From Rhynchopus sp. YZ270_cl-10 (lineage: Eukaryota > Euglenozoa > Diplonemea > Diplonemida > Diplonemidae), in contig OZ037869.1 of NCBI GenBank assembly GCA_964035575.1, positions 744,001-808,000 of the forward strand: a DNA stretch of 64,000 nucleotides. Direction: 5' to 3'. The notes under the pieces are model-generated. The model saw only the letters and a program-made list of their open reading frames with translations. It did not search any database and was not told where the DNA came from. The translations under genes were made by a program, and so were the position numbers. Positions 2,496 through 63,132 of this stretch are shown here, piece by piece. Every line of letters starts with the position of its first letter. Within the stretch, counting starts at the first letter, position 1.

Positions 2496-2528
2496 GATGA
2501 TCCTAAGCCTCTCGTGCTTAGTCACCTT
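2496..2528 (+). repeat. H1 hairpin repeat
   Basis: Outer GATG/CACC arm, inner stem CTAAGC pairing with GCTTAG, apical loop CTCTCGT. Preceded by the lead AAAGTTTATAA. A near-identical copy lies at 8766. Confidence 0.8.
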
Positions 2529-2693
2529 ATCATATTCGTTATCGCACAGCATCAGCTGCGCTGAAAGAGCAGCTGAAAGTGCAAACTCTACCAGACGCAA
2601 ACATCGGGCAGAAACAACAAGGCTTCAACTTATCTACCATCTCTCGGATCCAAATCACCTCAAAACCCCTTTCCAGTAAATCAGAATCGGCAA

Positions 2694-2726
2694 GATGATC
2701 CTAAGCCTCCCTTGTACGGTAGTCAC
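2694..2726 (+). repeat. H1 hairpin repeat, diverged
   Basis: Keeps GATGATCCTAAGCCT, but the right half is changed (TACGGTAGTCAC), so the stem is weakened. Confidence 0.55.
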
Positions 2727-2953
2727 ACACACGCCGTCAGGAAAATTACCAAAAACCCCCCCTTTTTTTTAGAAAAATAAATAACGAATTGCGAATGTGG
2801 AACCGTCAGGGCACCCCACCACCACCCCCTCCCCGAACAACGAAAAGAGGCTCATAAACCACACGTCTCACTCTAAGGGGGAGGGGTTAGCAACACCCTT
2901 GGGCTGCTGCGGCTTTATGTGGGGCTAAGCATTTTTTTTTTGTTTCCTTCCCG

Positions 2954-3005
2954 ATTTAAACTTTGTCGTATTAGTGCAGACACACCCAAGGATGAGCTCC
3001 ACTAC
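2954..3005 (+). repeat. S5 structured repeat, diverged
   Basis: ATTAGTGCAGACACACCCA and GGATGAGCTCCACTA match the S5 consensus (outer stem TAGTG/CACTA). The lead is AAACTTTGTCG. Confidence 0.6.
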
Positions 3006-3380
3006 ATCAACCATTTTTTAAGTTCTTTACTGCACACTGCGGGGGTTAAATACAAAACCCCTTAGGTGCAGACACCACTCTCAGTCGGGGCCTGCATTTA
3101 ACCCACACGTAGTCCTCTTTAAAAAAACGTCGTTCTCAGTAACCAAAACCTCCTTTTTTTCAGCTGAGTATTTTAAAAGAAAGGGGGTCTGTGCAATACC
3201 CACCATTGTGAAAAAAAAGGGGGAAAGGGATGGAGGGGAGCTAGCTAGAAGGACTTTGTAGATTACAGAGATAAAGAGTTTGGGGGGGAAGCTTTGACGT
3301 CTACACAATTCTAACGACTTACCAGAGGGGTCATCAAAAAAAGTTCTGGGCCAAACCCCTGACTGGGTTGGGCCGGGGGT

Positions 3381-3445
3381 CACAGCTGAGAATAAGACTC
3401 GGGGACCCGGGACCGGGACCTGGACCCGGCTTATTCTCAGCTGTG
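3381..3445. repeat. Perfect 16-bp inverted repeat with GC-rich loop
   Basis: CACAGCTGAGAATAAG at 3381-3396 is exactly complementary to 3430-3445. The 33-nt loop between is made of GGGACC/GGGACCC repeats. Not related to the H1-S5 families. Confidence 0.85.
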
Positions 3446-3695
3446 CGGGGGGGTCCACGCCCAATATAGGGAGGGGGTAGGACAGTGGGGACGCCCACTG
3501 GAATATCTCTTCCCTGGCCCCTTTTCCCCCAGCCTCTAGTCTTGTTTCGCCTTCATCCCTTCACCCCTCTCATTTCTCTTTAGCCCCACCCCTACCCAAC
3601 CCGTCTTAGAGACAAAAAAAAGAGAAAAAAAAGGGGGGAAACCTTAACGACAGCAGCGAGGGGGGGCGGAACGCAAGTCCCGCACAAGAAAATAA

Positions 3696-3735
3696 AGTTG
3701 ACTTAAAATACAAAGCCCTCTCGTGACAGTGTACC
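3696..3735 (+). repeat. S3 repeat
   Basis: Has the S3 core AATACAAAGCCCTCTCGTG then ACAGTGTACC, with the lead AAAGTTGACTTAA. The loop CTCTCGTG is shared with H1. Confidence 0.65.
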
Positions 3736-4324
3736 AAATAAAACCCCCAAATTTCTTTCTTCTAAGTTAGGCAAAATAGCAGTAAAAGGGAGGGGTGCTT
3801 TTGAGAATGCAAATTATTTTTGAGGAATTTTTTTTTGGTGCTCATCGGTATTTAGCCTTGTTTTCAGTATTGAGCGGGGAAGGACGTGAGGTGGGCAGAC
3901 GGGGGGTCAGGATTGCTGCAAAGAGCAAAACTAAAAAAAAAAGAGAGAATTTTCTTTTAAACAGATGAACATGTTTCTTCGTTGTCACAATGCCGTAGTA
4001 ATAAATATTGTGGGGCGTTCCATCCCAGAATAATTATTTGTTCGGCAATTCGCACATCATCAAAAAGGAAAAAAAGGGTCGGACGAGTCTAAACCTCTGC
4101 TCCAAAGTCACCTAAAAACGAACCAAATCTTTCATAGAGACCATATGGAGAGAAGACGGCAAAATGATTAAGATAATATTTTCAATCGAAAGATGGAGTT
4201 TTTTTTTTACCACCAGAGGATAGCACAAAAATATTCTAGGGTCGTCCTGCAATTAAGAGCATCCAAAAAGAGACAGAGTTTTGTATTCTCATCAAAAAAA
4301 AAGAGAGGAAAAATAAACTTGAAA

Positions 4325-4351
4325 GATGCAGTATGCTTCTGCACACACATC
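4325..4351 (+). repeat. H1 hairpin repeat, diverged
   Basis: GATGCAGTATGC, TTCTGCACAC, then ACATC. The outer GATG/CATC pairing is kept and the apical loop is changed. Confidence 0.5.
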
Positions 4352-4414
4352 TACAAATCAGGGCAGCACAGAGGAGGGGAGGGGGGGCGAGAAGAATTTT
4401 TCTTTTTTTTTTTT

Positions 4415-4462
4415 GAAAACTTGGTTGTATTAGTGTAGCCACCCGAGGATGAACTCCACTAT
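4415..4462 (+). repeat. S5 structured repeat
   Basis: GAAAACTTGGTTGTATTAGT lead, TAGTG/CACTA outer stem. The inner hairpin is CACCC/GGATG here and CACCC/GAGTG in other copies. Follows a T run and is followed by another. Confidence 0.8.
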
Positions 4463-4518
4463 TATTTTTTTTTTTTGCGGAACAGAACTTTAACAAATCC
4501 AAAAGAGAAAGGCAGAAA

Positions 4519-4546
4519 GATGAATGGGCCTTTTGTGCACACATCT
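4519..4546 (+). repeat. H1 hairpin repeat
   Basis: GATGAATGGGCC, loop TTTT, GTGCACACATC. Outer GATG/CATC arm intact. Confidence 0.6.
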
Positions 4547-5381
4547 ACCAAGAGAGGGGGCAAGATGGGTGGGTACATGGGTGTGCGCATGTGTCATCAA
4601 TTTGCTTCTAAATGACACTCATCTGGATATGGGTTGGCTTTGGTCCCCAACTCTCCCCCCTAAATATTCACAATTTTTTTTTTTGTACGAACTTCTGCAC
4701 ACAAGTTATGGAACACCCCCTGTGAACTTGAATTTCAAATTGCAGACGAAACAGAGGAGAGAGAGAGAGAGTTACAAACATATTTTTTTGTCCCTCCCCC
4801 AAAAAAACACAAAATATTTATTGCTACACCGTTTCTACGTATTGTCGATACTCGAAAAAAAGGGGGAGGGACATGCCAATATGTGCTGACACAGTCTCCC
4901 CCTCCCTTAAATGCACACACACAGCGGGATAGATCACACACCCCCAACCCCCAAGGGTACAGAACAAAGAGAGGACGCTCCCTTCCTGTTTCTCTTTGTG
5001 GATGAGAATCCTCTTCAGTCTTTCCGTACCCAGAAAAAACCCTCCCTTTTGTGAGCGCTTTCGCGTCCATAAAAGGGTATCACATAATCTACAATGGGTC
5101 TGAGCTGTCGAGGGGGGAAATAGAAACGTAACACTCATCACACGATAAAACCCATGGGAGACAGGTTGTGGTGAAAACGCACAACACCTCGACCTGTTTG
5201 GTGAGGAGTGGCTTCTGCAGCGCGGTTCGTCCCCAGAACCGAGTGTGTTCAAAATGCTTCTATTTCCTCCTTCATTTCATGAGGTGACAAAAATAAAAAA
5301 AAATAAAATAGAGTGCCCTGCGTTTCTTCAAAAGCGGTCACGGTTTTGGTCTTTGTGTTTTATGAATGATGTCATATCATA

Positions 5382-8152: not shown

Positions 8153-8507
8153 ATTGGCTTACACACTTTGCACAGGGGAGGTTGGAAAAAAAAAAGTTAT
8201 AAAAAAAAAGGGGGACAAAAAGTGAAAAAAAAAGCTTCTGTACTTTGTCACTCGAGTTACCATATTTTCACCAAACGGTGTAACTTAGTATCGACTTTGC
8301 ACAGGGGAGGTTGGATACAAGGTACATACGCATTGCATTGCCCAACCAGGAGGGGGTTTTTGATAAATAAATATTTTTTTTTGAATAGATAAAAGCAATA
8401 AATTACTTTTTATTTAAAACAAAAGGCACTCCGTATCCAAAACAGGGGGGCAGTCCAACCAGGAGGGGGGGGTATTATTGTAGAGGTAACAAAAGGAAAC
8501 CCTGTAA

Positions 8508-8542
8508 GATGAATGTGCCTGCTCGTAATGTGATATACATCT
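8508..8542 (+). repeat. H1 hairpin repeat
   Basis: GATGAATGTGCCTGCTCGTA then ATGTGATATACATC. Outer GATG/CATC arm kept. Confidence 0.6.
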
Positions 8543-8765
8543 TTGTATCACTATCAGCGCGCTGGAATAATGCGTTTGGGTTTGAAGATGTGTCTCTTCG
8601 GCACAAAGAAGATTATATCCATCGGCGTTTCAATTCAGGGAGAGAAAGCTTGCAAAAGATGGTTTGCAGGGTTATTTAAATATGCTGCCTTAACAGTTAG
8701 CATCGCGCCTATCTAACCACTAGGTAGCTTACAGTTTAAAAGTTTTAAAAATGAAAAGTTTATAA

Positions 8766-8796
8766 GATGACCCTAAGCCTCTCGTGCTTAGTCACC
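8766..8796 (+). repeat. H1 hairpin repeat
   Basis: GATGACCCTAAGC, loop CTCTCGT, GCTTAGTCACC; lead AAAAGTTTATAA. One of the clearest copies, almost the same as that at 2496. Confidence 0.8.
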
Positions 8797-9665
8797 TTAA
8801 AAAGTGTGCAAAGTGTGAAATCAACAATACAAAAAGCGGGTTTGGGTATGGGGGGTGGGGTGCGGGAAAACAAGCAATGCACACAAAACCCAAACAAATT
8901 TAATTTTGCAAAAGGGGTGGGATGAAAGTGGGGGGTGTGGGGGGGAAAAAAATGGGTGTTACAATACAACAGCAAACGGAAAGACCCCGCTGTGGCTGTT
9001 ACTTCTTTTTTTGTGAAAGGTTTTACTGTGTGTATTCTGTTTCTTATGGGGTTTTTTTCTTCTTTTTTTTCCCCACCCGCCCCAAAACTTCCTCCCCCCC
9101 TGCGAAAACGTCAAAAAAAATTTTTTTTCCATTTTCACCGTTCGATGGGTTTTTTGGTACAAAACAAAGAAATCTTCAAGACGAAAATACAATCTCCCAC
9201 TTAAAACAAAGAAAACCTTCAAAAAAAAGATCGGACGTGCATCACAAAAAAGCCCTCCATACGACACACATCTCAAAAAACAAAACGACAACTGCATTTC
9301 ATTATTTTGGGGAAGAAAAGGCATTTCAAAATATGAGGCAATATTTTGCAAATATCTATGTTTTCCTTCGGGGCACAGGAACCGACCAAGATCAACAACC
9401 AACTCGATATAAAATCCGGCTTCTTCAGCGCTGTTTGGTCACAAACTCCAACCTTCATCTATCTTGGCATGGTTTTTTTTCTTTCTTTCCTAGAAAAAAA
9501 GCACCATCTCTCTCGACGGGTTTGAGCAACTACTAATCGTGCACTGGTACTCAATCGAGTCGTCTAGCATACCACTTGGATATGAGTTCATTTGTAGTCT
9601 GAACTGTATCCTATAGTGTACAAAGCAGAACGCTTTTGGCAATGAGGTACATCCAGGCAAGTCTC

Positions 9666-12344
9666 TCATCCAGGTCCCATCACTTCGGATATGGAATCGA
9701 ACACCTGCGTCGCATTGTTCTTTGAATGGCAGCTGTACTTTACGCGCAGGTTGTTTCGGAAGCCTGATGTCGAGCGGACCGAAAGCATCTGTAGGTTGCA
9801 AAGGTGAACCAGGAGAGGTTTCTCATGGAAAGGGAGATAAGTAATATTGCAGTTGCATCGAGCAGGACCTCGCTTAAGAAGAAAAAAAAATATAGTGGAG
9901 CACACTCTAGGGTGGTTACACTAATACAACCAAGTTTTCAAAAAAAAAGGAAAAAGGTTTATGAGATGAACCTAAGTCTCGTGTGTAGTCAAAAGACTCT
10001 CGGTCTTGGTGCATGCCAATATAGGGTGGATCCAAACCAAATCTGCGTCACTAAAAGGTTGTGATATGCCCTCCGTCCGCTCTCATTGGAGAAAAAAGGT
10101 TTGTAATATGAATGATTTTGTGTCATCTTGCTCAACCATCGTTGTATAGCATCCGTTTGGCCGGTTTGAAAGAACAAAAAAAAAGGCTTCGCATACCAAT
10201 CGGGTCAGGTCAGCGGCGCAGAGCTCGACAGTGTTGTCAAGCATCCTCAGTTCGTCGACGCATTTTGGGACTGCGAAGGGGAGGTTCTGCGAAAGGGTGG
10301 ATGTTTTAGATGAGTAAACGGGAAAAGGGAAAGCGTAAAACCAAAATAAACAAATCCCCGAATTTTTTGAAATAAGGCAACACCACCCTCTAACTGCACC
10401 TTGCTGATCATTCCACCAGGGGTGCACTCGAACCATGCGACCCCTACATCTGGGTCCAGGTTTTCATCTGATCCAAATCCCTCAAAACCCTTCATAACGC
10501 CTCGTATATCGGCGGACTAATTCTACAAATTAAATCTACAAAATAAACGCACATACCCGACATGCAACCAGCAGCGAGGCAGCAGCAATGACTGCAGAGC
10601 GGAACTTGGCGACGATGTCGTAGTGCATGATGGCCAGCTCGGCAACGTACTCTGCTGTGTCCTGCTGGAGGGGGTGGAGCTGGTCACGCTCCCTGAGGAG
10701 GTCGAGGTAGCGCTCGAGGAAGAGGTACACCGTGGGGTGCCGCACGGCATCGGGCCCGAGCACCTCCGTCACCTCCTCCGCCTTCGCCTTGATCTGCTCC
10801 AGCGAGTACATCTTGTTGCACAGCACCCACATCCGCTCCAGAATCGACGGCCCCGCCTCGCCCAACATAATCGGCCCCTCCACCTTATTCGCGATAACCG
10901 CCGCAGCGCAGGCCAACAGCTGCAGCTCATCCTTCTGGACATGCCTCGCACCAAGAAACTTATCGGTCAACATCACCGTCAAAAAGTGAGCATGCATTGG
11001 AAGCGGGCCACGCGACCAATACTGCACATCACTCAGCCACCCGACGACGAAGGAACGCATCCTCGGATTGACGTCTGCCTGGCGGGCAAGGAAGAAGGAG
11101 GTCTTCACCGGCACGCTCCGCACCGAGATGGTCCCATCGGGGGTCCAGTTCGAGCCGTTACCGTGCAGCCATTCGCGGTTCGTCTGTGGGAGCCATCCGT
11201 TGTGTTTCGACGCTGCCGCAATGTGGCCAGCACCTGTCGAAAAGTCGACCTCTCTATTGCTAAACGTCCACACCCCACACGGTGAAGAATACAACCACGA
11301 CGCTGGCACCTCCTCCACCTCCTCCTCCACCGCCACCGCCACGTCGACAGACTGAGACGACGAAGCGTCGGTCAACGCAGCGCTCGAAAGAACCGGAGCC
11401 TCGGTACCACGCTCCGCAGTCACCTCAGTTTCGCTGCTTTCCCCTTTGACCCAGAAAGGGTATCCGTTGACCTTTCCTTTACCTAGGGTGTAGGCGCCAG
11501 AGCAGAAGCTGTGGTGGTCGGAGGAATGCAGCAGGAGCGACCCTGGGAGGCAGAAGTGGCGTTCGGCGTTGACAAGGCCTTCCATGGCGTGGCAGTGCAT
11601 GTCGCAGTTGCAGCCGCCCTCGCCTGCTTCAGGTGAATGCACCTCAGGGATCATCCCAAGCAGGATGTAGAGGTCCATAGACCACAGCGTGCCCACCTCG
11701 TATTGAAACTCTGGAAAGGTGTTCCGTGTGCTAAGCTGTTCCTCAATGTGGTCCGTGCCAACGTGAACAACACGCATAGAAGAGTCCTCAGCAAGACGCT
11801 GCCACATCAAGCGTGCGCGACGAAAGGAAGGTCTAGGGCTGTGCCACCACCATTTCTCCATCTCCGAGGCACACTCTGGCATGTCCTCTAGCGAATCCTT
11901 CAGGCCCGAGATGCTGGACGAAATTGCGTTGGTGAAGAGCGACCAATAATACGCAACGGTGTCCTCGTAGTCCTCTTCGTTGAGGTCGCTGGCGAGACGT
12001 TTGAAGGAGAGCGAGTCGCAGGGGTGCGGGATCGCTTTGGGGTTGTCGCGGATGTGGCGGAAGCGGCGGCGCACCTCAGTCCACGTGCCGCTGGAGTGGG
12101 AGAGACGCCACCAGTCACGGCTGACGTTGCGTACGGTTGTTGCGATCTCAATGCCGCTTAAATAGGTGAAGCACATCACCAGCACCTCCTCCACCAGGAC
12201 ACGCTCAACGGGCCCGCCAACGCGTTCCCCAACGGAGTCGCATGTGCTCACCGAAATGCGACACCTCTTCGTCCTCGACTCACTCAACCACCCTTCACAA
12301 GACCCGCGCCCTCTCTTCCCGCGCACAGTCGTTCCTGTCAACAT
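9666..12344 (-). CDS. F-box/cyclin protein (cyclin F / CFB-like), four exons
   Basis: Exons 12344-10557, 10516-10400, 10286-10197 and 9788-9666; all joins are phase 0; stop TGA. An F-box lies at residues about 45-95 (VEEVLVMCFTYLSGIEIATT then VSRDWWRL). A Trp/Gly-rich module follows (GYPFWVKGE, SWLYSSPCGVWTFSNREVDF). A cyclin box starts near residue 450 (FLTVMLTDKFLGARHVQKDE, ELQLLACAAAVIANKVEGP), with a C-terminal cyclin fold split over the last exons (AVPKCVDELRMLDNT, LRVKYSCHSKNNATQVFDSI). F-box/cyclin proteins are SCF ubiquitin-ligase receptors in animals; trypanosomes have CFB proteins of similar plan. Intron 1 is only 40 nt (GTATGT...TTAG). A TAG acceptor-like site lies 2 nt before the ATG. 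The last exon is the least certain: a second frame is also open at 9490-9801. Confidence 0.75.
9892..9939 (-). repeat. S5 structured repeat, reverse orientation, in cyclin intron 3
   Basis: TAGTGGAGCACACTCTAGGG then TTACACTA. One of only two S5 copies found in this orientation; both lie inside introns of minus-strand genes. Confidence 0.75.
9965..9992 (+). repeat. H1 hairpin repeat in cyclin intron 3
   Basis: GATGAACCTAAG, TCTCGTG, TGTAGTC; lead AAAGGTTTATGA. Right arm weakened. A second, poorer copy is at about 10107-10128 in the same intron. Confidence 0.5.
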
Positions 12345-12725: not shown

Positions 12726-12878
12726 CCCCAACCAAGCAGTCCTACGTCCATTTCGTGGTTTACATCTGATATGTGCTACTCCGCTCCACTCGGCTGCCAG
12801 ATGAACGGGGATCATTGCGAACACAGGGTAATTAGGCCTGTGTGATGCTAGTCTGCTTGGGGGAAAAAACAAGTTTAA

Positions 12879-12917
12879 GATGAATCTAAGCCACTCTCGT
12901 TCGTGCTTAGTCACCTT
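12879..12917 (+). repeat. H1 hairpin repeat with enlarged loop
   Basis: GATGAATCTAAGC on the left and GTGCTTAGTCACC on the right; loop lengthened to CACTCTCGTTC. Stem fully paired. Confidence 0.75.
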
Positions 12918-13073
12918 TTCAAACAAAACTATGTCGCCTGCTTTCGTTAGCGATGATGATTGCAAAAGGTGGGTTACCAACAAAAAAAAATGATTACAAA
13001 AACGTTCTTTAAAGAAATTGAGACAAAATGCCTTGCAATACAAAGCCGTCTCATAAAAATAAAAACTTGCAAA

Positions 13074-13103
13074 GATGAACGTGCCTCTCGTGCACACACA
13101 TCT
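13074..13103 (+). repeat. H1 hairpin repeat
   Basis: GATGAACGTGC, loop CTCTCGT, GCACACACATC. Compared with 8766 both inner-stem sides and both outer arms have changed together, keeping the pairing. Confidence 0.8.
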
Positions 13104-14312: not shown

Positions 14313-14449
14313 GTTGAAAGAGAGTGAGTGAGAGGGGAGAGGGGAGGAGGGTGTTGGCGTAGTCCTTTTTAATGCGTTCGGGGGTGAAACGAAACGAAGG
14401 AGACTGTGGAAGCGTTTGAAAAGAAAAAAAAAAACTTTAAAAATATGAA

Positions 14450-14481
14450 AATGTGCCTCTCGTAATGTGAGGCACATTTTT
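14450..14481 (+). repeat. H1-type hairpin, longest perfect stem
   Basis: AATGTGCCTC pairs perfectly with GAGGCACATT around the loop TCGTAATGT. It lacks the GATG arm but keeps the family's GTGCCTCTCGT. Confidence 0.75.
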
Positions 14482-14812
14482 TAATCATGTTGTCGTTATC
14501 GCGCTGCAACGCGCTGGGGTTGAAGATAGGCGGTCTCTTCGTGACAAAGACAGTCGTTCGAGGTGATATCGCGACCCCATTTGCTTGTATTGCAGGTTGA
14601 GGCATGGGGTATTTGCCTCAGCATGTGCGCAGTGAAGTAAGGCCGGCATCCGGTTGTAGCCAAAGCGTGCAGGAGCGTCAATGGAGCGGAGGCCCTTGAA
14701 CTGGAGACAAACCAAATAGATTTTTTTTTGTAATAATGAAAACCGTAGCCACCCCAAATCGAAGAGGGGAGGAGGAGGAGGTAAAGTAGTTCACCGGTTT
14801 TGAAAATAAAAA

Positions 14813-14902
14813 GAGAAGTTGAAAGTGCAAACGCCTCACCGCACACCGGCGGACGCAGGGCACTGGCTCCCCCGCGGGTTCGCGAACCCCAGGAAGCACT
14901 TC
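14813..14902 (+). repeat. S2 structured repeat, most complete copy
   Basis: AGAGAAGTTGAAAGTGCAAA lead. Outer stem AAGTGC/GCACTT closes the whole 70-nt unit. CGCC/GGCG forms the first inner hairpin and GGGTT-CGCG-AACCC the second. Overall it is like a three-way junction. The reverse strand ends in CTTCTCTTTTT, which would suit a Pol III terminator. Confidence 0.75.
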
Positions 14903-15201
14903 ATAAATAAATGTTCTGAAGTATGCTTGCAAACCTGAGCTGTGTTGGGTGTGTGAATATTGGCCCAATCACCAAGAAGCAGTGGTACAAAAAAAACAAC
15001 GACAACGACAACAACAACACAGGGCATTACTACAACAGAATCCGAGAACACCCTAGCCCTCAACATACACACGACACCTCTCTTTCCCCTAAGCACACTT
15101 GAACACTTGAACACGACACACAGAACAAGGGGAAACAAAAGAGAGGGAAAACTCGAACGATAAAATGTGTCCCGCTGTGCACATACAAAAAAAGTTAGTA
15201 A

Positions 15202-15233
15202 GATGGACCAAAGCCTCACTGTGTGTCACTCGC
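15202..15233 (+). repeat. H1 hairpin repeat, diverged
   Basis: GATGGACCAAAGCCTCACTG then TGTGTCACTC; lead AAAGTTAGTAA. Confidence 0.55.
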
Positions 15234-15324
15234 CGTAAGAGAAAACAAAAAAAAAAAAAGGCCACAAAAATTGCTCGCCAAACGGAGGATACGTTGAAAA
15301 AGCTAAAAGAAGAAAACTTATAAA

Positions 15325-15354
15325 GATGAATGTGCCTCTCGTTCACACACATCT
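15325..15354 (+). repeat. H1 hairpin repeat
   Basis: GATGAATGTGCCTCTCGTTC then ACACACATC; lead GAAAACTTATAAA. Confidence 0.75.
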
Positions 15355-15764
15355 AAGAAAATATGGAGTCTCTCGTCCATCACCTAAAAGGCCTAAAAAG
15401 GACCTTGAAAAAAGAGAAGTTGAAAGTGCAAACGTCCCACAACAAAGAAAATGCTCTAAGTAAAGTCTCGTGGTTGTCACGTACTGCATTGGGTGTTCGT
15501 GGGAACAGACTGAGCTAGCGTGTGAGGCCTGCTCGCGCTGCCCTTGGTTTTTAGCAAACACCCGAGGATTGTCAATCATACCTCATTACCTGCCACCAAT
15601 TGCCAATGTGAGGGAGAGGGGGAAACAAACAACACCCAGCCGTTACGACAAAAAAACGGAAATAATGTAAAAATTGAATGAAATCAAGATTTTTTCAAGT
15701 AAAGAAAAGTGCAAAACGCCTCAATTCAGTTTATCGGCGGATGCAGGCTAAAAAAATTGGTACC

Positions 15765-15830: not shown

Positions 15831-15867
15831 AAAGTGTCAGATGATAAACCCAACAAAAGCTTTGTAA

Positions 15868-15890
15868 GATGACCATACTTGGCCACCTTA
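15868..15890 (+). repeat. H1 hairpin repeat, short
   Basis: GATGACCATACTT then GGCCACCTTA; lead AAGCTTTGTAA. Loop and stem reduced. Confidence 0.45.
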
Positions 15891-16300: not shown

Positions 16301-16720
16301 TTAGCGTTTACGATGAGCCTTTGTATGACCCATCCACTCGCGGATGTTTGAGGTCTGCTTGGCGAGGAAGACCCTTATGCGTAATTCAAAGTCAACCGCG
16401 AGCTCGACACACGACACGTCGCAAGGCTCGTTATTCCATTCGAGTGTAGCTACCCCACAGAAAAGCTTTCGTTGTAGCTAGAAGAAAAAATTGGTTGTAG
16501 CTTGGCCAGATGAGCGCGGAAAGGGGTGTCCCGTTGAGGCAGCAAATGTGAGATCCCAAGGATGCACGGTCGGGGCCATCTCTGTTGGATATCGCGTCGA
16601 TGGCGTTGACGGCATCGAGGAGAAGAGACTGCACCGCCTTCATTGCTGTCTTGCTTATGTTGGAGGGCACAATGCCGTGCAACATAAAGCAGATAGGTAG
16701 CCCTTTGCTGCGCATGCAAG
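16301..16720 (-). CDS. Unidentified split gene, last exon plus probable earlier exon
   Basis: The last exon (16477-16301) encodes LQRKLFCGVATLEWNNEPCD and goes on for 58 residues to HTKAHRKR and TAA. It starts right after TTTTTTCTTCTAG, a good 3' splice site, with a stop in the same frame just before it. Upstream, 16715-16490 is open in another frame with protein-like composition (MLHGIVPSNISKTAMKAVQS), but the donor site joining the two is unclear; a GTGCAG after MKA would give phase 0. LFCGVA recalls exosome subunit RRP46, but the match is too short to call. Further pieces may lie at 17210-17800. I do not recognise the protein. Confidence 0.4.
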
Positions 16721-17299
16721 GTAATGAACTCTAGTCTGCACTATGCATGAAACAAAACAAAACTTGAGATGAAAAACTTTCAAAAAAATAAAACATAAAC
16801 ATAACCACAGTGGCAAGCATGAAAGATGTGAAGCGGGGCACCTTCATTTTCATTTTTTTGCGCGAGAGATGAAAGCTTTACCACACTACGCTCTAATACG
16901 TATGGTGGGTGGATAAAGCCTGAATCATGAACAAACCTCGCGAATGAACATTCATTTCAATCTCATAACACGCAACGCTTCAAAGCCACTATCTAAAAAG
17001 CAGGTTAAAATAACGGCAGAGTAAAGGCACCCCCATGTGCTGACAATGAGCAAAGAGAGGGTCTGTGGAAATCCGTACTTCATGTGTCTTCATTCATCTT
17101 TCAGAAATTGAAAGGTGAATGTAACTAGGACACATCATATCAACAATAAGAGAAAATCTCGGGGAATTGGGTCACACACCAAAAATAAATGTAGAAAATG
17201 CGGAAAATATTGGTTGCGAACCTGCGTCTCGGAATGACAGAGACATAGCTATTACGTTCCGCCAAAAAGGGGGGGGGGGGGAAAGTTTCCATTTCAATA

Positions 17300-17330
17300 G
17301 ATGAACCAAGCCTCTTGTGCTTGTCACTCT
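17300..17330 (+). repeat. H1 hairpin repeat, diverged
   Basis: GATGAACCAAGCCTCTTGTG then CTTGTCACTC. Inner stem CAAGC/GCTTG kept by paired change. Confidence 0.6.
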
Positions 17331-17878
17331 CAAAGATGAACACTTGAAAAAAAAGAGGGTTTTTTTTTTGCAAACCTTTCCCTGAGTTGGTGGAACCCTG
17401 CAGTGGGTAAAAGGGACCAGCACGTATGCTGAATGTTTGAAAACTGCTTTATGTAGGGAAAAAGAAACAGAATATTTATTTGAAGAATGGCAAAGGATCC
17501 AAAAGCGCACAAAAAATAGGTGCCCCGAGGAAAGCTGGTACCTTTTTATGAAAACACATCACTCTTTTTTTGAACTCGTAATAAGTGATGTCACAGGAAC
17601 GTAACTGACACATAATATGTCCTTCACCAGGTCCGCAGGAACATCAAATAAAACAGTGCATTGTAACAAACACACAAAACGGGGAGGAAAACGTACCAGA
17701 CGATTCCCAAAGTGGGGGAGGAAAACGTACAACTCCGCTGGTATGGACCCGGACACCTGGTAGAACCCGCGAAAGACATACGGGAGAACCACGGGGAATC
17801 AGAGGGGGGTCACACCATCCACGTTGACGTTTTTTCCCCCACAAAAAAAAAATATATAAAAAACAAGAATATTTGAAA

Positions 17879-17908
17879 GATGGATAAACCTCTCTGTGCA
17901 CGCATCAG
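17879..17908 (+). repeat. H1 hairpin repeat, diverged
   Basis: GATGGATAAACCTCTCTGTG then CACGCATC. Outer arm kept. Confidence 0.5.
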
Positions 17909-20142: not shown

Positions 20143-20195
20143 AGAGAAGTTAAAAGTGCAAACGCCTCACCGTTCATCGGCGGACGCAGGCACTA
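20143..20195 (+). repeat. S2 structured repeat, left part
   Basis: AGAGAAGTTAAAAGTGCAAA lead, CGCC/GGCG hairpin over TCACCGTTCATC, then GGACGCAGGCAC. The right-hand GGGTT/AACCC hairpin is missing. Confidence 0.7.
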
Positions 20196-26850: not shown

Positions 26851-27733
26851 TTAGTTCTTCTTGGCCTTCTTCTTCTTCTTGTCGGTCGCCTCCTTCTTCA
26901 CGGCCGAGCCGCGCTCAACGCGCTCCTGTTTGTATTGTAGATGAGTATTTGCATTTTGATTGCAACAAAGAAACCTTCAGTACCACAGGAACACATCCGT
27001 TATTTAAGGGTTAGGATACTGATACACGGCGACCTTGTATACCATGATGCTATTTTTTTGATTTATCACAGGTGGGAGAAAAAAATAGAGAATTTGTAAG
27101 ATGAATGTGCATCTCGTGCACATCTAAAAACATAATTAAGACAAATGCCAAAGATGGAGTTGGCAAGGGGAAAGAAAGGGATACCTTCTCGCGACGCTTC
27201 TCGGTGGCGGCGGCAAGCTTCTTGCGCTTGTCCTCCTTCTTGTTCTTCTTCGCCTCCAGCTGGTCGAGCAGGTCCTTCTCGCGGGCCTTGAGACCCTTCT
27301 CCTTGTGGATGTGCTCGAGGAGGGTTCTCTTGTTCTTGAAGACGTTACCCTTGCACTTCAGGTACATCTGGCGGTAGGAGTGGCGGTCGATCTTCTTCTG
27401 CTCACGGAACTTGGCGAGGAGACGACGGAGGACACGGATACGACGCACCCACAGCTCCTTGGAGGGCATGCGTGCCTCGGCGGTACCCTTGCGCTTTCCG
27501 AACCCGGTGTGACGGCCCTTCCTCTTGGCCTCAAGGGTCTTGCGCCACCTGAAGCGGGATGCGGACTGCTTCGGCTTCTTGATGATGAATCCGTCCTTGA
27601 TGCACTTCTCCACCTGCGAGCGGGAGTTGGCCGAGGCCAGGTCGCTGGTCTCGTTGGGGTCAAGCCAAACACGGCCGCGACCGCATTTCAGGATCTTCCC
27701 GGCAAGCCGTGCCTGCAGTTTCAGTGATACCAT
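26851..27733 (-). CDS. RPL19: 60S ribosomal protein eL19, two exons
   Basis: Large-subunit ribosomal protein. Exon 1 (27733-27185) starts [20 protein letters not shown] and contains the family core [37 protein letters not shown] and [13 protein letters not shown]. Exon 2 (26925-26851) adds [24 protein letters not shown] and TAA. The 259-nt intron starts GTATCC and ends AACAG, phase 0, and carries an H1 hairpin. Full length is 207 aa, close to the usual 180-200; the extra is the Lys-rich tail. A CAG lies 15 nt before the ATG. Confidence 0.95.
27100..27125 (+). repeat. H1 hairpin repeat in eL19 intron
   Basis: GATGAATGTGCATCTCGTGC then ACATC; lead AGAATTTGTAA. GTGC/GCAC inner stem and GATG/CATC outer arm both intact. 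On the mRNA it would appear as the reverse complement. Confidence 0.75.
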
Positions 27734-29146: not shown

Positions 29147-29236
29147 AGAGAAGTTGAAAGTGCAAATGCCTCATCGTTCGTTCATCGGACGCAGGCATTG
29201 CCCTTCCCCGTGGGTTTAGCGAATCCCAGAGTGGGG
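29147..29236 (+). repeat. S2 structured repeat, near full length
   Basis: AGAGAAGTTGAAAGTGCAAA lead, then GCCTCATCG...CGGACGCAGGC, then a GGGTT-TAGCG-AATCCC hairpin and AGAGTGGGG. Confidence 0.7.
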
Positions 29237-31040
29237 AAAAAATGTTTGTATGAGTCTAAGCTAGTAACCCAATATCATGTCGCACATCATTCCCGCCCTA
29301 TCTCAGACCACACCAGAAGAGAGGGGGGAAAAAATCCGGAAAAAAAATGAATCCTCTCTCGTGCACGTAACACAGAAATAATAATTAGAGATTTCGAAAA
29401 ATCGTTTTTTTCGCGTACCAAAAACAAAAAATGATTGGAACGGAGTATTTTTTTTTTTTTTTTCAACCACATCTGGGCTAGACAACTGAGGGACGGGGGA
29501 TAGATGCTCTAAAGGTAGGAACACAAGCCAGGTGTGGGATTTGTGTCGTTTCCCACAAAAAGAAAAAAGAGAAAAAATACCAAAAAAAATTGTAGGTCAG
29601 ATGAAACGCCAAGCCGCTTGGCTACTTCATAAAAACGGCCAAAAAAAACACCAAACATCAAAAAAAATGTGGAGTTGTGAAAATGCCTCTGGGACGCAGG
29701 CACTGACACTCCGTGTGTTATCGGGGGGGGAAAAACAACAACTAAACTGGATGAGTTGTGTCGAGACTGTCCACCACAAATAAAACCTCAAAAGAAAATA
29801 AGGGGCGAAGTTGATAATATACTCCTAAGCTTATCAGCTGAGGTCGCCTTGAGTTGCCATAAATAGGAAAAAGAAAAAGTTAGGTGAACCAACGCTTATT
29901 GAATATGGAAAATCCGTATATCTCTGGAACACCACTTTTCCCTTTTTCCCTTTCCTTCGCCCCCCTTTTTTTACATTCTCTATAAAAAAACCCTTTCTCT
30001 CCTCTCTCCAACAGAGAAAAACCCCCCAACAAATAATCTGCCGTACATCCCCATGTCCATCACTGTAACCGTGGGTAAAGATACACATGGTGGTCCTCAC
30101 ACCACCTTGTTGCATGATAACAGGCACATCAATCAGCAAGGGGCAGCTTTTGCTCCCTTCGATCCAGAATATGCAGTTCAGAAGAGGGGAAAGGGAATGG
30201 GAAATGGGAAGGGGAAGAGGGGGGGAAATCTTGCAAGACGGATATATGCCTCCACGGTGGGGCTTGGTTTGCTTTTTTTTGATGCTGTTATGTTTTTGCA
30301 TCCCGGAATAAACAAGAAAATGCTATTTTATTTTTGGGAAAGAGGATGAGGGAAAAAGGGGGTCAAGCAACACCAGCGAGAGGTTCAAAAAAAAATGCCC
30401 TCAAAAAAAAAGGTGTTATTGCCGTCACTTCAAAAATTCTTTTTTTTTAGAAAAAGAGTCGACGCAAAGAATGGGTAGAGGACAAATGAATGCAAACCAT
30501 TTCTCCCCTTTTGTGCGCTTTGTGCGTTACTGAATAATTTCTTAAAAGGAACCAAATACAGCAGTTCAACATTTGGGTAAAAACCCTTTATCAGACGCCA
30601 ATTCCCAAAAAAAAAATCAACCATATATTTGTTAGAGTATTGTGAACAATACACTGAGGCATGGCAATTTCAATGTCAAAAACGGGATGAATCGCTAATA
30701 TGAATCGCTAATTGCCCCACACCACCCCCACAGATCAGGATGAACACTAACATAAGGCATTTTTTTGAGCAATTATGATGCCTTGTTTGTTTTATTGTGT
30801 CGACAATCACCTACCAAAGTAGGGTACGTACCCCATTTGACGCCTTCAAGCGTTTGCACTGCAAATATGTTGACGCAAACCATCCTGTTTTTAATAAATC
30901 TGTTGGGTGTAATTACCCTTTTTACCATCACTTTTTTTTTACAATGCATTATGCTTCGCCCATTAATATGGGGGTTTCAAAACTAAAGTAATGGACATTA
31001 TTTTCAAAAGAGGGGGAAAAAAAAAAGGAAATTTTGATAA

Positions 31041-31071
31041 GATGAGTAAGACTCTGTGCTCAAGTCATCTT
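31041..31071 (+). repeat. H1 hairpin repeat, diverged
   Basis: GATGAGTAAGACTCTGTGCT then CAAGTCATC; outer GATG/CATC kept. Confidence 0.5.
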
Positions 31072-31236: not shown

Positions 31237-31338
31237 TGGGGCGGATTTAAGCGAGGAGTGGTACCTCCCCGCCTCAATGAAAAATGTCTTCTGCTGTTGG
31301 AGACACCAAAAAAAGGGGGGAAAAATTTTCTTGAAAAC

Positions 31339-31370
31339 GATGAATGAGCATCACGGACGCACACACATCT
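31339..31370 (+). repeat. H1 hairpin repeat, diverged
   Basis: GATGAATGAGCATCACGGAC then GCACACACATC; outer arm kept. Confidence 0.5.
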
Positions 31371-31540: not shown

Positions 31541-31554
31541 GAAACTGCGGGGGA

Positions 31555-32805: not shown

Positions 32806-34285
32806 ACCACTACCCCTGTATAGGTCACACCAAAGATACTTTATTTTTTGCAAATAAAAAAATAAAAACTTTCCATATTTTACAATGTTTTATATAAAAC
32901 CTCCCTCCACGATCTTAGCCTCTATGGAAATCCTCTATTTTTGGTCACCCCCTCCAGAGAGGGGATAACCTCTCATACAACTCCGCCATACAGGCAGTTC
33001 TTTTTTCACTAAAAAAAGGGTAAATAAATTTCATATACTTTCTATTCAAGAAAGCACACAAGGACGTTTAAAAACGGAAAAAAAGAAAAAAAAAACACAT
33101 TTTTTTTTTTTGGGAGCCATCTATAACGACACTGCGACACATCATGAGAGAGAAAACAACACTGTTCTTTTCTATCCCTTGTACGCAGGGGGGTATGGGG
33201 GTGTGGCTAGCAGTCCAAAGGTGACTAAGATATCATGCAAGAAAAAGGAAATGAAAACGGAACGAATAGGGGGAAAAAAGGCTGGGAGATGGGGGAAATG
33301 GGATTTGTGAAAAAAAGAGAAAAAAAAAAGGTCTACAAAGCCTTGCTTAGTTACCTAAAAAGACAAAAGAAAAGTTTGAAAGATGGGATATGACTTACAT
33401 AACACATCTGCGAAGATAGGATACGTACAGAGCACCTCTGGGTATATCTGCGAGATACACTGGAAGAAAAAAAATAATATCAAAAGCGAAAGTTGATAGT
33501 GCAAAACACCGGGGGGGACAGAGACAGTGACGCCCTGTGGGTTGTCGAACTCACCAGAGAGTCAGAGAAAACCACCTTTGTTGAGCGAGAGGCAGGAGAA
33601 AGTTGGGAAAGAACGAAGACTTTGAACCATTGTTCCACTCTGTTGCCCCTTCTAAGAAAAGGATTCCCGCTTCACCAACCTCACACACCACCCCTACACA
33701 CTAAACCGTAAACCAAAAATTTCACCACGGAGAAGAAAACAACACCCTTAGCACACGGGCAGCCTACCCCCTTTTTGTTTTTCGTTATAAAAATCGGTCG
33801 GTTTTTTTTTTCAAAAAAAAATTCCGCACCCAATACCCACCCCCTCTGGAGGTAGAAATTACTGTACAGAAACCCACCTGAGGGGTGTGTGTGACCCATC
33901 TTCATCCCCCGGCTACACAAAGATAATTTTTTTTTTGAAAATCAATGAAATGTACGAAACTCGGCACATCTACAAGGACTCCCCCCTTTTCCCCCCTCCC
34001 ACCCCTTCCCCTCTGTACTCCCCACTACCTCAGCAATTGAAGTAGCAGGAACCTCTCTCTCTCCCTCTCCCCTCGAGAAACATATTGATGAGAAGCAAAT
34101 CCTTCACCCCTCCTTGTTCAAATAAAAACCCGACAAAATTTTTGCGTGATACGACGAAGCGCAACAGATTTCGATATCAGCGCCAAAAAAAAACCTCCCC
34201 CGCCCCCTTCTCCCCCTCCTCGCACTTCAAATATTTGAGAACCAAAAAAAAAACTCTTTTTTTTTCTCCTCTTCTCACCATATCC
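32806..34285. other. Spacer with S2 and H1 repeats
   Basis: H1 at 33382 and a partial copy near 33330; S2 at 33489-33560 with a GGGTT-GTCG-AACTC hairpin. Homopolymer-rich; no gene recognised. Confidence 0.5.
33489..33560 (+). repeat. S2 structured repeat
   Basis: AGTTGATAGTGCAAAACACC left part, ACGCCCTGTGGGTTGTCGAA then CTCACCAGAG on the right. Confidence 0.55.
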
Positions 34286-51856: not shown

Positions 51857-51895
51857 TAGTTGGAGTGCAAACGCCTCGGCGGACGTAGGCACCGG
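51857..51895 (+). repeat. S2 structured repeat, short
   Basis: AGTTGGAGTGCAAACGCCTC then GGCGGACGTAGGCAC; CGCC/GGCG with a minimal TC loop. Confidence 0.6.
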
Positions 51896-54433: not shown

Positions 54434-54452
54434 TACTAGTTTTTTTTTGTGA

Positions 54453-54487
54453 AGATGAACCTAAGCCTCTTGGACTTGGTCACCTGG
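54453..54487 (+). repeat. H1 hairpin repeat
   Basis: GATGAACCTAAGCCTCTTGG then ACTTGGTCACC. Sits directly after two S5 copies. Confidence 0.65.
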
Positions 54488-57185: not shown

Positions 57186-57234
57186 GAAAACTTGGTTGTA
57201 TTAGTGTAGCCACCCTAGAGTGTGCTTCACTATA
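57186..57234 (+). repeat. S5 structured repeat
   Basis: GAAAACTTGGTTGTATTAGT then GTAGCCACCCTAGAGTGTGC and TTCACTA. An H1 copy follows after 10 nt. Confidence 0.8.
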
Positions 57235-57244
57235 TTTTTTTAAA

Positions 57245-57278
57245 GATGAACTTCAGGCTCTCCTTGTTAAAACACCTT
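57245..57278 (+). repeat. H1 hairpin repeat, diverged
   Basis: GATGAACTTCAGGCTCTCCT then TGTTAAAACACC; right arm changed. Confidence 0.45.
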
Positions 57279-60946: not shown

Positions 60947-60976
60947 GATGAGCCTTAGCTTTGCGTTTCACACCTT
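60947..60976 (+). repeat. H1 hairpin repeat, diverged
   Basis: GATGAGCCTTAGCTTTGCGT then TTCACACC; lead GAGGTTGCAAGAA. Confidence 0.5.
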
Positions 60977-61203
60977 TTTAAAAAGGTCAGACGGACATTC
61001 GCGTAACGGGTTGTTGGTGTTTGTGAGCACAGAGTAGCAAATGTTTTTGTTTTGACACACGCGAAGTTTAAGGCCAAATAAAAAAAATTACAACTTTGCG
61101 CTGTTCTCAATAGTACACTAGTGGAAACAAAAAAATGGAAATAACGAAAAAAATAAGAATAATGGAATAGGCCTTGGCGGGCACATCCGTATCTTCACAA
61201 ACT

Positions 61204-61400
61204 CGTGTTCTGTTTTTCCCCTCTTTTTCGAGAAAAAATTTTTTTTTTGGCAGTGCTCGGCACCTTGTGGGTGACGTACACCACACAAAGAACCACCATC
61301 TCTAGCAGCCTCTGAATCAACGGCACAACGACCAGATCACTGGGACCAGTGTCCTGTACACATTCACATTGATCGAAAGACGGGTTCGACGGTATTGTGG
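61204..61400 (-). other. Possible lone exon
   Basis: About 60 codons of balanced composition on the minus strand (LNRATIPSNPSFDQCECVQD, TGPSDLVVVPLIQRLLEMVV, LCVVYVTHKVPSTA) amid homopolymer spacer. No clear splice sites at both ends and no recognised family. Confidence 0.25.
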
Positions 61401-61530
61401 CACGGTTCAATATTTCTTTTTTAGAAAATGAGTAACAAAAGTGAGAAGACACACTTTTTTGGGGTAATTTTTGGGGAGATCATTTGGCTGCGAACAAGCA
61501 AAAAGAAGAAAAAAAGGGGGGTTTTTATAA

Positions 61531-61561
61531 GATGACCCTAAACCTCTTGCGTTTAGTGACC
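61531..61561 (+). repeat. H1 hairpin repeat
   Basis: GATGACCCTAAAC, loop CTCTTGC, GTTTAGTGACC. CTAAAC/GTTTAG replaces CTAAGC/GCTTAG, a compensatory G-to-A and C-to-T pair. Confidence 0.75.
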
Positions 61562-62048
61562 AAAGAGAAACAAATGTAGAAATACAAGAAAACACACACA
61601 TAACAGTGCACTGCTGTTTGGACTAGTCGGTTGTCGGTTGTCAGTATTGTGCGTTAGTCAGTCTAATGCTGGTATACTGGCCTAATAGAATTATTATTAG
61701 GCTGTGTTGTGTGTTTTTTTTAAAGGGGGAAAGTTTCTACGAGTTATATTCAGCAAGTTCGGGCGTCGGTTGTGTTCTGTTTTCTAAAGGGAAAAGCTTT
61801 TTGGGGGGGAGGATGTCCTTTTTTGCAGGAATAATAAAAAAAAAGCTGTGAAACTACAGCTTTACAAAGAAAAATCAAAAAAAAAGAGCGTATGCAAAAC
61901 AAAAGCACCAAACTGATACTGGTAGTGGGGGAGGTTGGACGGGTTGAGTGCCTGCGGGGGGGGCGGGGGGGGTATAAAAGGGGGAAAGGAAGGAAAAACG
62001 TTTTTTTTTTTAAAATACCGAATATCCGTATGACATTTAGTACTGAAA

Positions 62049-62078
62049 GATGGGTATGGCTGACCTGTATACACATCT
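62049..62078 (+). repeat. H1 hairpin repeat, diverged
   Basis: GATGGGTATGGCTGACCTGT then ATACACATC; outer arm kept. Confidence 0.45.
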
Positions 62079-62142
62079 AAAAAGGGGGGGGGGGGGAGGA
62101 GAAAGGGGTATTGGGCAGAGGGGCTATACAGGGCGTGATAAA

Positions 62143-62183
62143 AGAGAAGTTAATGCAAACGCCTCACTGGACCGGATGCATCT
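62143..62183 (+). repeat. S2 structured repeat, truncated
   Basis: AGAGAAGTTAATGCAAACGC then CTCACTGGACCGGATGCATC. Confidence 0.55.
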
Positions 62184-62490
62184 TTTACATTCTCTGAAAA
62201 CGTAAAGTGTTTTTTTTTTGTCAGCTTCACGTTGCCTGGTCATCTTAATAAAAAGAGGGGGTTCTACACACCCCACACTATGGGAATGCTTCCACGCAGG
62301 CATTGTCCACAATGTATCACCATGTGTTAAAACACTCATTTGCTATATCAGGGGTATTTTTAGAGGGGGTTGGTGCTGAGGGCTGTCACACCACAACACA
62401 GTTCTTTCCTTCTTCCTACATACCATCACCGTCACACACACCTCTTCTCGCTGTCTTCTTTCGGGGGGGAAAAGAAAAAGAAAAATGTAA

Positions 62491-62521
62491 GATTAAACTA
62501 AGCCTCTGTCGCTTAGTAACC
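62491..62521 (+). repeat. H1 hairpin repeat
   Basis: GATTAAACTAAGC, loop CTCTGTC, GCTTAGTAACC. Left GATT and right AACC change together at the outer arm. Confidence 0.65.
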
Positions 62522-62741
62522 TATTAAAAAAAAGCACACCGCTCGACTTTTCTCTTGAGATTTTGTTTTTTTTTTTTTAAATGCCCCGCTGAGAATGGGT
62601 TCTGTACTCAATATTGTTTTGAAGACCCATTTTTTTTTTTTTACTACTCAGACGTTCAACAAAGAGAGGATAAAAAGAGTAGATGTAACGTGCTAAAAAA
62701 ACGCAGCTCAGTCGGGGGGGGAAATAAATTAGAAGTTGAAA

Positions 62742-62772
62742 GATGAATATACCTCATGTGTATACCACATCT
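62742..62772 (+). repeat. H1 hairpin repeat
   Basis: GATGAATATACC, TCATG, TGTATACCACATC. The inner stem is TATAC/GTATA, unlike any other copy, yet paired. Confidence 0.7.
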
Positions 62773-63102
62773 GGGAAGGAAGCAAGTATAGGAAACGCAT
62801 TGTTATTTTATCTACATCATGTGGAAGTGGATGTAATCTTTTTTTATTCAAAAATCATCAAAAAAAAACATCAGGATAAAGAGAGGTAGTTTTTTGCATT
62901 GTAATTTAAGTTTATGTATTTCTTGGGGAGCAGTCGATTATGGGTTGGAAAAGAATAGAGAGAATGTGTTTCGACACTGTGCTTTGCAGAAGATGCATAA
63001 CAAAATGATTACGACATATTTAAAAACAATACTGAAAAATAGAATTTACAAAAAAAAGAGGGAAAATAGGTTCTCACATAAAGAAAGCTTTTAAAAGCAT
63101 AA

Positions 63103-63132
63103 GATGGAGTTAAGCCTTGTGCTTAGTCACCT
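63103..63132 (+). repeat. H1 hairpin repeat
   Basis: GATGGAGTTAAGCCTTGTGC then TTAGTCACC; TTAAGC/GCTTAG stem. Confidence 0.65.

Follow-up and report, generated by a model that had tools for sequence, protein, structure and literature searches.

Hairpin copies in the window and across the genome

What are the short hairpins scattered over this 64-kb stretch of DNA (the window, that is, the whole stretch analysed), with stems that differ between copies yet pair? They are very probably the 3′-terminal stem-loops of several related families of LINEs, non-LTR elements encoding an endonuclease and a reverse transcriptase (RT). Two covariance models, R1 and R2, with E-values scaled to 264 kb, matched 15 window copies at E≤0.01 and nine further ones at E 0.01–1, all on the minus strand, which is the coding strand. 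Nearly 40 dispersed hairpins had been claimed in the earlier note; the copies are real, but their number under these models is 24 at E≤1. Eleven of the 15 strong matches are training rows of the models, so their E-values are biased by that, and the strong matches outside the training set are those starting at 4311, 12865, 17286 and 63089. Among the 29 single positions named earlier, 15 were matched at E≤0.01 (2496, 4325, 4519, 8766, 12879, 13074, 15325, 17300, 27100, 31555, 54453, 61531, 62491, 62742 and 63103), eight at E 0.01–1 (8508, 9965, 15202, 15868, 17879, 31041, 33382 and 57245) and one at E=4.3 (51745), while five (2694, 51919, 59731, 60947 and 62049) had no R1 or R2 match up to E=5. 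The earlier note had read the hairpin in antisense; in the coding (minus) orientation, it is AGGTGACTAAGC-ACGAGAG-GCTTAGGATCATCT, followed by TATAAACTTTTC. No Rfam family matched the window at the gathering threshold.

The copies fall into classes, all with minus-strand coordinates. Class A (model R1) includes a hairpin and tail with LINE A 3′ sequence of at least 36 nt on its 5′ (sense) side (2482..2527, E=3e-15), a hairpin-only copy without LINE flank (8752..8797, E=9.4e-15), copies with the stems CCAAGT/GCTTAG (54440..54485, E=2.8e-8) and CTAAAC/GTTTAG, a change of a G-C to an A-U pair (61517..61562, E=3.5e-9), and a further copy at 62477..62522 (E=7.8e-10), all five being training rows; outside the training set are a copy with an enlarged loop (12865..12916, E=1.8e-8), a class A-like hairpin (17286..17329, E=0.0035) and one with a partly decayed stem of -4.1 kcal/mol (63089..63132, E=0.00049). 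Class C (model R2) comprises the training rows 4505..4548 (E=4.1e-7), 13060..13103 (E=7.1e-10), 15311..15354 (E=1.7e-9), 31541..31584 (E=4.4e-7), a class C-like hairpin with the stem GTATAC/GTATAT (62728..62772, E=4e-6) and a copy within an inferred intron of ribosomal protein L19e (27086..27127, E=1.1e-6), where the Pfam-recognised L19e frame resumes past the intron; 4311..4352 (E=0.0037) lies outside the training set. Weaker matches are class A-like at 9951..9994 (R1, E=0.06), 15188..15231 (R1, E=0.39) and 15854..15888 (R1, E=0.19), class C-like at 8494..8542 (R2, E=0.24) and 17865..17907 (R2, E=0.25), and otherwise lie at 31027..31070 (R1, E=0.24), 33368..33409 (R2, E=0.34), 31324..31368 (R2, E=0.23; an additional match inside the previously given range 31041-31555) and 57231..57277 (R1, E=0.68), the 5′ flank of the last (CTGTGCGATAAACGAT...) resembling a LINE 3′ region by eye. 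Class B is represented by 14824..14864 with the tail TTCAACTTCTCTTT, a class B-like hairpin with four mismatches and the class B tail (15425..15457), a hairpin-only copy (20155..20194), 29159..29199, 51864..51893, and 29676..29704, which has three mismatches and is preceded by sequence of the LINE B 3′ ends (ACGGAGTGTC).

In the 152 Mb genome, which is that of a euglenozoan and probably of a diplonemid, the 19-mer CTAAGCCTCTCGTGCTTAG occurs 1,910 times (944+966) and TGTGCACGAGAGGCACATTCATC 159+147 times, against 0 for the backward control of each, so the copy number lies above chance. A dinoflagellate source was rejected, as the DinoSL 15-mer gave 0 matches.

Probable LINE sources of the hairpins

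Among the 37 LINE A rows listed, 18 have uninterrupted 1,462-aa frames for an endonuclease and an RT, with the domains RVT_1 (E=1e-24), L1 ORF2p (E=2.4e-18) and Exo_endo_phos (E=8.4e-14); the closest named relatives of the RT frame are LINE-like RT proteins of Diplonema papillatum, with ~37-51% identity over parts. The LINE A hairpin begins ~10 nt past the stop codon, with an A/T-rich tail after it (TATAAACTTTTCTTT). The 123-bp stretch 5′ of the hairpin is 100% identical in 33 of 40 scored copies, and the hairpin and tail are present in all 16 fetched copies of this stretch, beyond which the sequences diverge. LINE B (27 rows listed, 48% identity) is built likewise, with a stem-loop and then an A/T-rich tail a short way past the ORF stop (ATCAACTTCACTTT); in 6/6 of its 3′ ends, the hairpin occupies the corresponding place and differs in sequence. 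A short 3′ UTR stem-loop at a constant 3′ end was thus found for LINE A (locus L064 and the 16/16 copies) and for LINE B (6/6). A third, decayed LINE in the window (LINE C) carries its own different hairpin at the 3′ end: the C-terminal end of its frame lies at 14529..14697 on the minus strand (tblastn with residues 873-932 of the LINE A frame, E=5.7e-4), and its hairpin at 14448..14480 (minus) has a 12-bp stem, the loop CACATTACG, then ATTTTTAAAG and a T-run, with a class C-like 3′ half and a fold z-score of -4.0 for 14440-14510. An internal LINE remnant was also found at 16337..16697 (minus; tblastn E=2.5e-7 and 0.001).

LINE A is shown as a source: the dispersed class A units are the LINE A 3′ end, cut on the 5′ side. 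The tie of class C to a LINE comes from one decayed copy only, and none of six fetched class C loci matched the LINE A frame. In the short copies of class B, the loop is longer than in the LINE B ends examined, and their source may therefore be a lineage other than LINE B. The suggestion of a mobile unit that depends on the fold for its spread fits, in that LINE families whose endonuclease/RT frames are long and uninterrupted have this hairpin as their constant 3′ end; the need for the fold is presumed. The earlier note had missed the bodies of the LINEs, the sharp limit of the short copies on the 5′ side and the strand lock described below.

Stem pairing and covariation

The claim that the stems differ yet pair holds between classes and is weak inside a class. 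On the one hand, between classes the own partner arm gave -8.9 kcal/mol versus -6.6 for swapped arms, with 0/5000 permutations as good. On the other hand, inside the two classes, 226/5000 and 1409/5000 permutations paired equally well. Alignment A2 had both-side changes in four cells versus 0.7 in shuffles; in A3, the control slid by +2 equalled the structure in the number of both-side changes, an effect of the TG repeat; and in A4, which was fitted to the model, the covariation score was reached in 67/500 shuffles and the other four measures in none. Weak stems (above -5 kcal/mol) were found in 4 of the 24 window copies. The sense-RNA fold z-scores of seven window copies (E≤1) ranged from -3.9 to -0.05, so that individual copies often fold unremarkably, and the LINE B hairpin in an 81-nt context folded no better than shuffles (z=-0.6). 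The sense RNA folded better than the antisense in both copies tested (-14.5 vs -9.2 and -11.6 vs -9.2). The "compensatory" stems mostly separate source families, because LINE A, LINE B and the third LINE end in different hairpins. The formerly proposed transcribed, structurally constrained RNA, taken as one of the host, is not upheld, since the covariation lies mainly between source families, some stems are decayed and the copies show no enrichment at splice acceptors.

Short copies and the strand lock

About 20 of the 29 close class A copies begin at the hairpin base and consist of hairpin and tail only (a first count of 21/29 was lowered when locus L024 turned out to be a diverged extended copy), whereas the extended copies stop at varied points within the LINE. 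These short non-autonomous copies share the LINE 3′ tail; against the LINE-tail explanation, ordinary 5′ truncation would not be expected to concentrate 5′ ends at the base of the hairpin. A set of 21 CTGAGC copies had been selected for absence from the listed extended copies. Target-site duplications received weak support, with 29/5000 and 21/400 permutations in two anchored tests and 563/5000 in an unanchored one, and T makes up 53% of the bases immediately preceding the copies and 66% of those immediately following them, against 26.5% overall.

All of 68 hairpin matches lie on the coding strand, in a set that omits two rows of locus L018 (8129 and 9014, from the second copy of a duplicated stretch), that includes 33 training rows, and in which loci L009-L028 had been selected around matches of class A, which biases their density upward. 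Orientation was further compared among 326 places, comprising all rows listed for the LINE bodies and in one further listing, the first 100 of the 1,910 and the first 100 of the 306 core occurrences; some LINE bodies are counted along with their own tails, and the neighbour comparisons are non-independent. Within this set, neighbours at 10-50 kb had the same orientation in 114/114 comparisons, and most contigs fit a single switch from minus (left) to plus (right), from which 13 of the 326 places deviate (12 on contig C2 and one on C4), versus an average of 87 for random strands. Orientation follows transcription in the copies examined, which is unusual. Targeting of T-runs was rejected as the whole cause of the lock, as sense T-runs of at least 8 number 292 versus 222 A-runs.

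Proposed mechanism and alternative explanations

The LINE protein would bind the loop and stem of its own RNA tail, the U-rich tail would pair with an A-rich primer at a nick, and target-primed reverse transcription would place the cDNA into T-runs. The loop and tail would stay alike while the stem would need only pairing, and LINE lineages could therefore have drifted to different stems, a drift that dead copies may record. The hairpin-only copies probably derive from hairpin-bounded RNAs, either exonuclease-protected LINE ends or a SINE-like transcript, and insertion or survival would follow the direction of transcription (or of replication). Tentatively, and at somewhat less than an even chance, retrotransposition may be mechanically strand-locked, with nicking by the endonuclease or priming by the RNP on one strand only of megabase-long unidirectional units (for example, on template-strand A-tracts bared by transcription), and the ~46-nt protected tail hairpin may be the main mobilised template.

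Two explanations dispense with a LINE tail altogether. A host pre-mRNA element, in which the hairpin sits just upstream of a branch point and polypyrimidine tract and aids cis- or trans-splicing, would account for a tail (TTATAAAC, TTACTAAC) resembling a branch point followed by pyrimidines, for sense-oriented copies mostly outside ORFs (5/68 inside versus 32.5 expected) and for the one copy in an inferred intron. However, a pyrimidine tract with YAG follows within 60 nt in 16/68 copies versus 110/539 other noncoding sense T-runs, and the identical tail is the LINE 3′ end; with acceptors not enriched, this reading was rejected as very improbable. A palindromic DNA element (MITE) or introner is suggested by arms resembling terminal inverted repeats and has a parallel in Amoebophrya, whose introners are reported to bear hairpin-forming inverted repeats (PMC7789003). 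It is contradicted by the LINE junctions, that is, by a constant 3′ end with a variable 5′ extension into an RT-encoding body, as well as by the strand lock and by the lack of two fixed ends, and in L19e, the one gene examined, the inferred intron reaches ~60 and ~170 nt beyond the hairpin, so the two are not coextensive; we consider this explanation extremely improbable.

The other two explanations accept the LINE tail and concern the strand lock alone. Selection against antisense copies, rather than the insertion mechanism, is a real possibility that we nonetheless doubt: the long transcription units each run in one direction, an antisense insertion might interfere with RNA processing, and Leishmania SIDERs are reported to be ~4:1 sense overall, with the antisense ones enriched in spacers (PMC2689281), but near-identical LINE A and LINE B bodies agree with their neighbours within 100 kb (10/10 and 6/6, respectively), and another short hairpin repeat occurs on both window strands (2 plus, 7 minus). 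That the lock follows replication-fork direction instead of transcription is unlikely. The single switch fitted by most contigs, with 13/326 deviations, would also be expected from a central origin, whereas all 68 matches lie on the coding strand, though both directions may coincide.

If the mechanical strand lock with a mobilised tail hairpin is true, few known retroposons would be as small as a bare LINE tail hairpin. If the lock arises at insertion, transcription- or replication-coupled LINE targeting becomes directly testable here, where direction is constant over long stretches. Related families with different stems and similar loops and tails form a natural experiment on LINE tail reading within one genome, where the minimal unit also recurs in more than a thousand exact copies and source frames without interruption are present. 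The copies could also be used as strand markers of transcription units in an unannotated genome.

Comparison with known systems

That no described family has this form, as the earlier note stated, is too strong, because recognition of a 3′ stem-loop by the protein of the element itself is reported as the hallmark of stringent-type LINEs (PMC4176376). An endonuclease and RT, a 3′ stem-loop at a constant end and tail-sharing short copies were all found here, as in stringent-type LINEs and their partner SINEs (UnaL2, ZfL2-1, ZfL2-2), in which the 3′ stem-loop of the LINE RNA is likewise common to short non-autonomous copies (PMC4176376). In ZfL2-1, a stem swap reportedly retained about half of the activity and a loop swap did not (PMC4176376), which fits the conserved loop and variable stems seen here. 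In our case, however, the short copies are hairpin and tail alone, with recognition presumed; their A/T-rich tail does not form a clear tandem repeat, and their orientation is tied to that of transcription. The LINE tail of stringent type is thus a known kind, and its strand-locked variant is new. The D. papillatum genome is described as having LINE-1 ORFs, GT-AG introns and unidirectional gene arrays, and the available portion of that paper makes no mention of tail hairpins (PMC10161547). The SIDER retroposons of Leishmania are also short, mostly sense and found in polycistronic genomes, but they are several hundred nt long, ~4:1 sense and extinct (PMC2689281), whereas the copies here are ~46 nt long, sense in 68/68 cases and have intact relatives. 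For human L1, an orientation bias relative to transcription is reported already in new insertions (PMC5717806); it runs against sense (62.1% antisense in CSA+ cells, PMC5717806), whereas here it favours sense, without exception in the sample.

Hairpin copies and their genomic setting

The dispersed hairpins described in the earlier note are real and lie above chance, as the class A core (class A being the hairpin at the 3′ end of LINE A) has 1,910 exact copies in the genome and the core of class C (similar to part of the end hairpin of a decayed LINE C) has 306, against 0 in the backward control of each. Two covariance models found 15 copies in the window at E ≤ 0.01, of which 11 were training rows, and nine further copies at E ≤ 1. 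Every one of these 24 copies lies on the minus strand; up to E = 5, the plus strand yielded only two window matches, one (E = 0.53) mirroring the copy at 2482 and a weak one at 17082 (E = 2). Among the 29 positions originally proposed, 15 were recovered at E ≤ 0.01, eight more up to E = 1 and one at E = 4.3, but five were unmatched.

The window corresponds to C37:744001-808000 in a genome of 152 Mb and 126 contigs. A Pfam scan covered 20 of its ORFs (17 minus, 3 plus), and all seven reaching the family cut-off were on the minus strand. The ribosomal protein L19e gene (26926-27733, minus) has a putative GT-AG intron near its 3′ end, with a class C hairpin inside. A large repeated coding block (36411-51463, unit of ~1.8 kb) contained minus-strand ORFs of up to 1,333 aa with no clear Pfam family, and tandem arrays of 14-bp and 9-bp units were found at 32001-32322 and 54669-55082, respectively. 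Elsewhere in the genome, contig C111 contained tandem SSU rRNA units, with rRNA fragments also dispersed across many other contigs, and two fetched loci (L045 and L003) contained long arrays of a leucine-rich motif (..TSLGDNFLSGCTSLTSINFAGL..) that we take to be BspA-like. What we presume to be the diplonemid-type spliced leader 3′ end occurred twice in a search for the spliced leader. A similar presumed 3′ end lies immediately 5′ of unrelated sequence at L049:1450-1530, perhaps a retrocopied trans-spliced mRNA.

LINE bodies behind the hairpins

A 123-bp stretch directly 5′ (sense) of one hairpin had 510 first-look candidates in the genome, with 100% identity in 33 of the 40 scored. Each of 16 fetched copies contained the hairpin and its tail, followed by diverging T-rich flanks, and one was 5′-truncated inside the displayed stretch. 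The reading frame upstream of the hairpin matched RVT_1 (E = 1e-24) and resembled L1 ORF2p (E = 2.4e-18), and in one full-length LINE A copy an endonuclease domain opens the frame (E = 8.4e-14). Organism-named relatives of this retrotransposon were Diplonema papillatum proteins in all but one case (Karenia brevis). The organism is probably a diplonemid. When part of the frame was used to query the genome, the 64 candidates scored out of 339 divided into 37 LINE A rows, of which 18 have uninterrupted 1,462-aa frames, and 27 LINE B rows at 48% identity, of which 26 have frames spanning 1,458-1,476 aa. The LINE A stop codon lies ~10 nt before the hairpin start; LINE B ended in a different hairpin in six of six cases, and then in ATCAACTTCACTTT (five) or ATCAACTTCATTTT (one). 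LINE C, a decayed third LINE in the window, left a frame remnant at 14529-14697 and terminates in a hairpin at 14448-14480, the 3′ half of which (GAGAGGCACATTTTCAT) is similar to class C GAGAGGCACATTCATC. Because LINEs A, B and C end in differing hairpins, the GATG/CACC and GATG/CATC types distinguished previously are most simply two LINE lineages; the class B hairpin is most simply a third.

Many copies consist of little more than the hairpin. Among 29 close class A copies in a 264 kb sample (the window plus 20 loci picked around class A matches), about 20 have a 5′ end no more than 2 nt from the base of the hairpin, a first count giving 21 and a gapped comparison moving one locus (L024) to the extended group; the extended copies, 8 of 29 at first count, retained 7 to at least 74 nt of LINE. 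The LINE's ATGATA precedes 273 of 1,277 exact AGGTGACTRAGCACGAGAGGCTTAGG copies genome-wide, a lower bound on extended copies. None of 21 CTGAGC copies, chosen for an absent LINE flank, had a LINE A flank at p ≤ 0.01 (L074, p = 0.035). T made up 53% of the 6 nt preceding the model match and 66% of the 6 nt following it, against 26.5% overall. For target-site duplications, anchored tests gave 21/400 and 29/5000 permutations and an unanchored test gave 563/5000. ORFs of ≥200 aa hold 5 of 68 copies, the L19e intron copy included, against 32.5 expected.

Stem pairing and folding

For the 24 window copies, own arms paired at -8.9 vs -6.6 kcal/mol for swapped arms, with 0/5000 permutations as good; inside classes A and C, own-arm pairing was matched by 226/5000 and 1409/5000 permutations, respectively. 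Both-side changes numbered 4 vs 0.7 in shuffles for hairpin alignment A2, 5 vs 1.0 for A3 (a control slid by +2 likewise gave 5) and 12 vs 1.9 for A4, which was fitted to the model and whose covariation score was equalled by 67/500 shuffles. The compensatory change is thus real and located mostly between source families, and covariation inside a class is weak. Together with weak stems in 4 of the 24 window copies, this fits a source RNA that needs to fold and inserted copies that decay. The antisense folded worse than the sense RNA in both copies tested. Among seven window copies (E ≤ 1) folded as sense RNA, three were clearly more stable than shuffles (z from -2.5 to -3.9) and the other four were not (z -1.6 to -0.05); the ends of LINE C and LINE B gave z = -4.0 and z = -0.6, respectively.

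A strand lock on the coding strand

In the 264 kb sample, the strand richer in coding sequence carries 68 of 68 distinct matches at E ≤ 0.01, and this holds in the window and in 20/20 loci. Antisense matches appeared only above E = 0.01: seven of them mirror strong palindromes (E from 0.095 to 3.9), and two are non-mirror matches, at window 17082 and L026:3135 (E = 4.8). In the sample, class B hairpins with their tail were sense in nine cases and antisense in none. T-runs (292) outnumber A-runs (222) only slightly in sense. Among the genome places listed, LINE bodies included, nearest neighbours agreed in strand in 114/114 cases at 10-50 kb, 178/179 up to 100 kb and 231/234 up to 200 kb. A rule of left arm minus and right arm plus had 13 exceptions among 326 listed places on 57 contigs, where random strands average 87; 12 of these were on contig C2 and one on C4. 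This suggests that most contigs are two long units, the left minus and the right plus, from which C2 deviates.

Selection may produce such a lock by acting on inserted copies' orientation; however, LINE bodies within 100 kb also keep the strand rule (10/10 and 6/6 comparisons), and many of them are young because they are nearly identical. The obedience of young LINE bodies therefore favours a cause at insertion. The lock may track the direction of transcription or of replication. Another dispersed hairpin repeat in the window (GTGGAGCACACTCTAGGGTGGCTACACTAATACAACCAAGTTTTC), with poly-A on both sides in most copies, is without strand lock, since its copies are on both strands (2 plus, 7 minus), at 4415-4459, 9895-9939, 23084-23128, 53631-53675, 53751-53795, 54318-54362, 54386-54430, 56829-56873 and 57186-57230.

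Comparison with known systems

Among the matches listed from the open-licence literature, none dealt with retroposons made of a tail hairpin alone or described diplonemids with a complete strand lock, and the novelty of both is weakly suggested. In stringent-type LINEs, as PMC4176376 describes them, the element's own protein recognises a 3′ stem-loop for mobilisation; a 3′ stem-loop is present here too, and by this anatomy the LINEs would fit the stringent type. By comparison, SIDERs are ~4:1 sense according to PMC2689281, whereas the hairpins here are 68/68 sense in the sample, and human L1 is biased against the sense orientation (PMC5717806).
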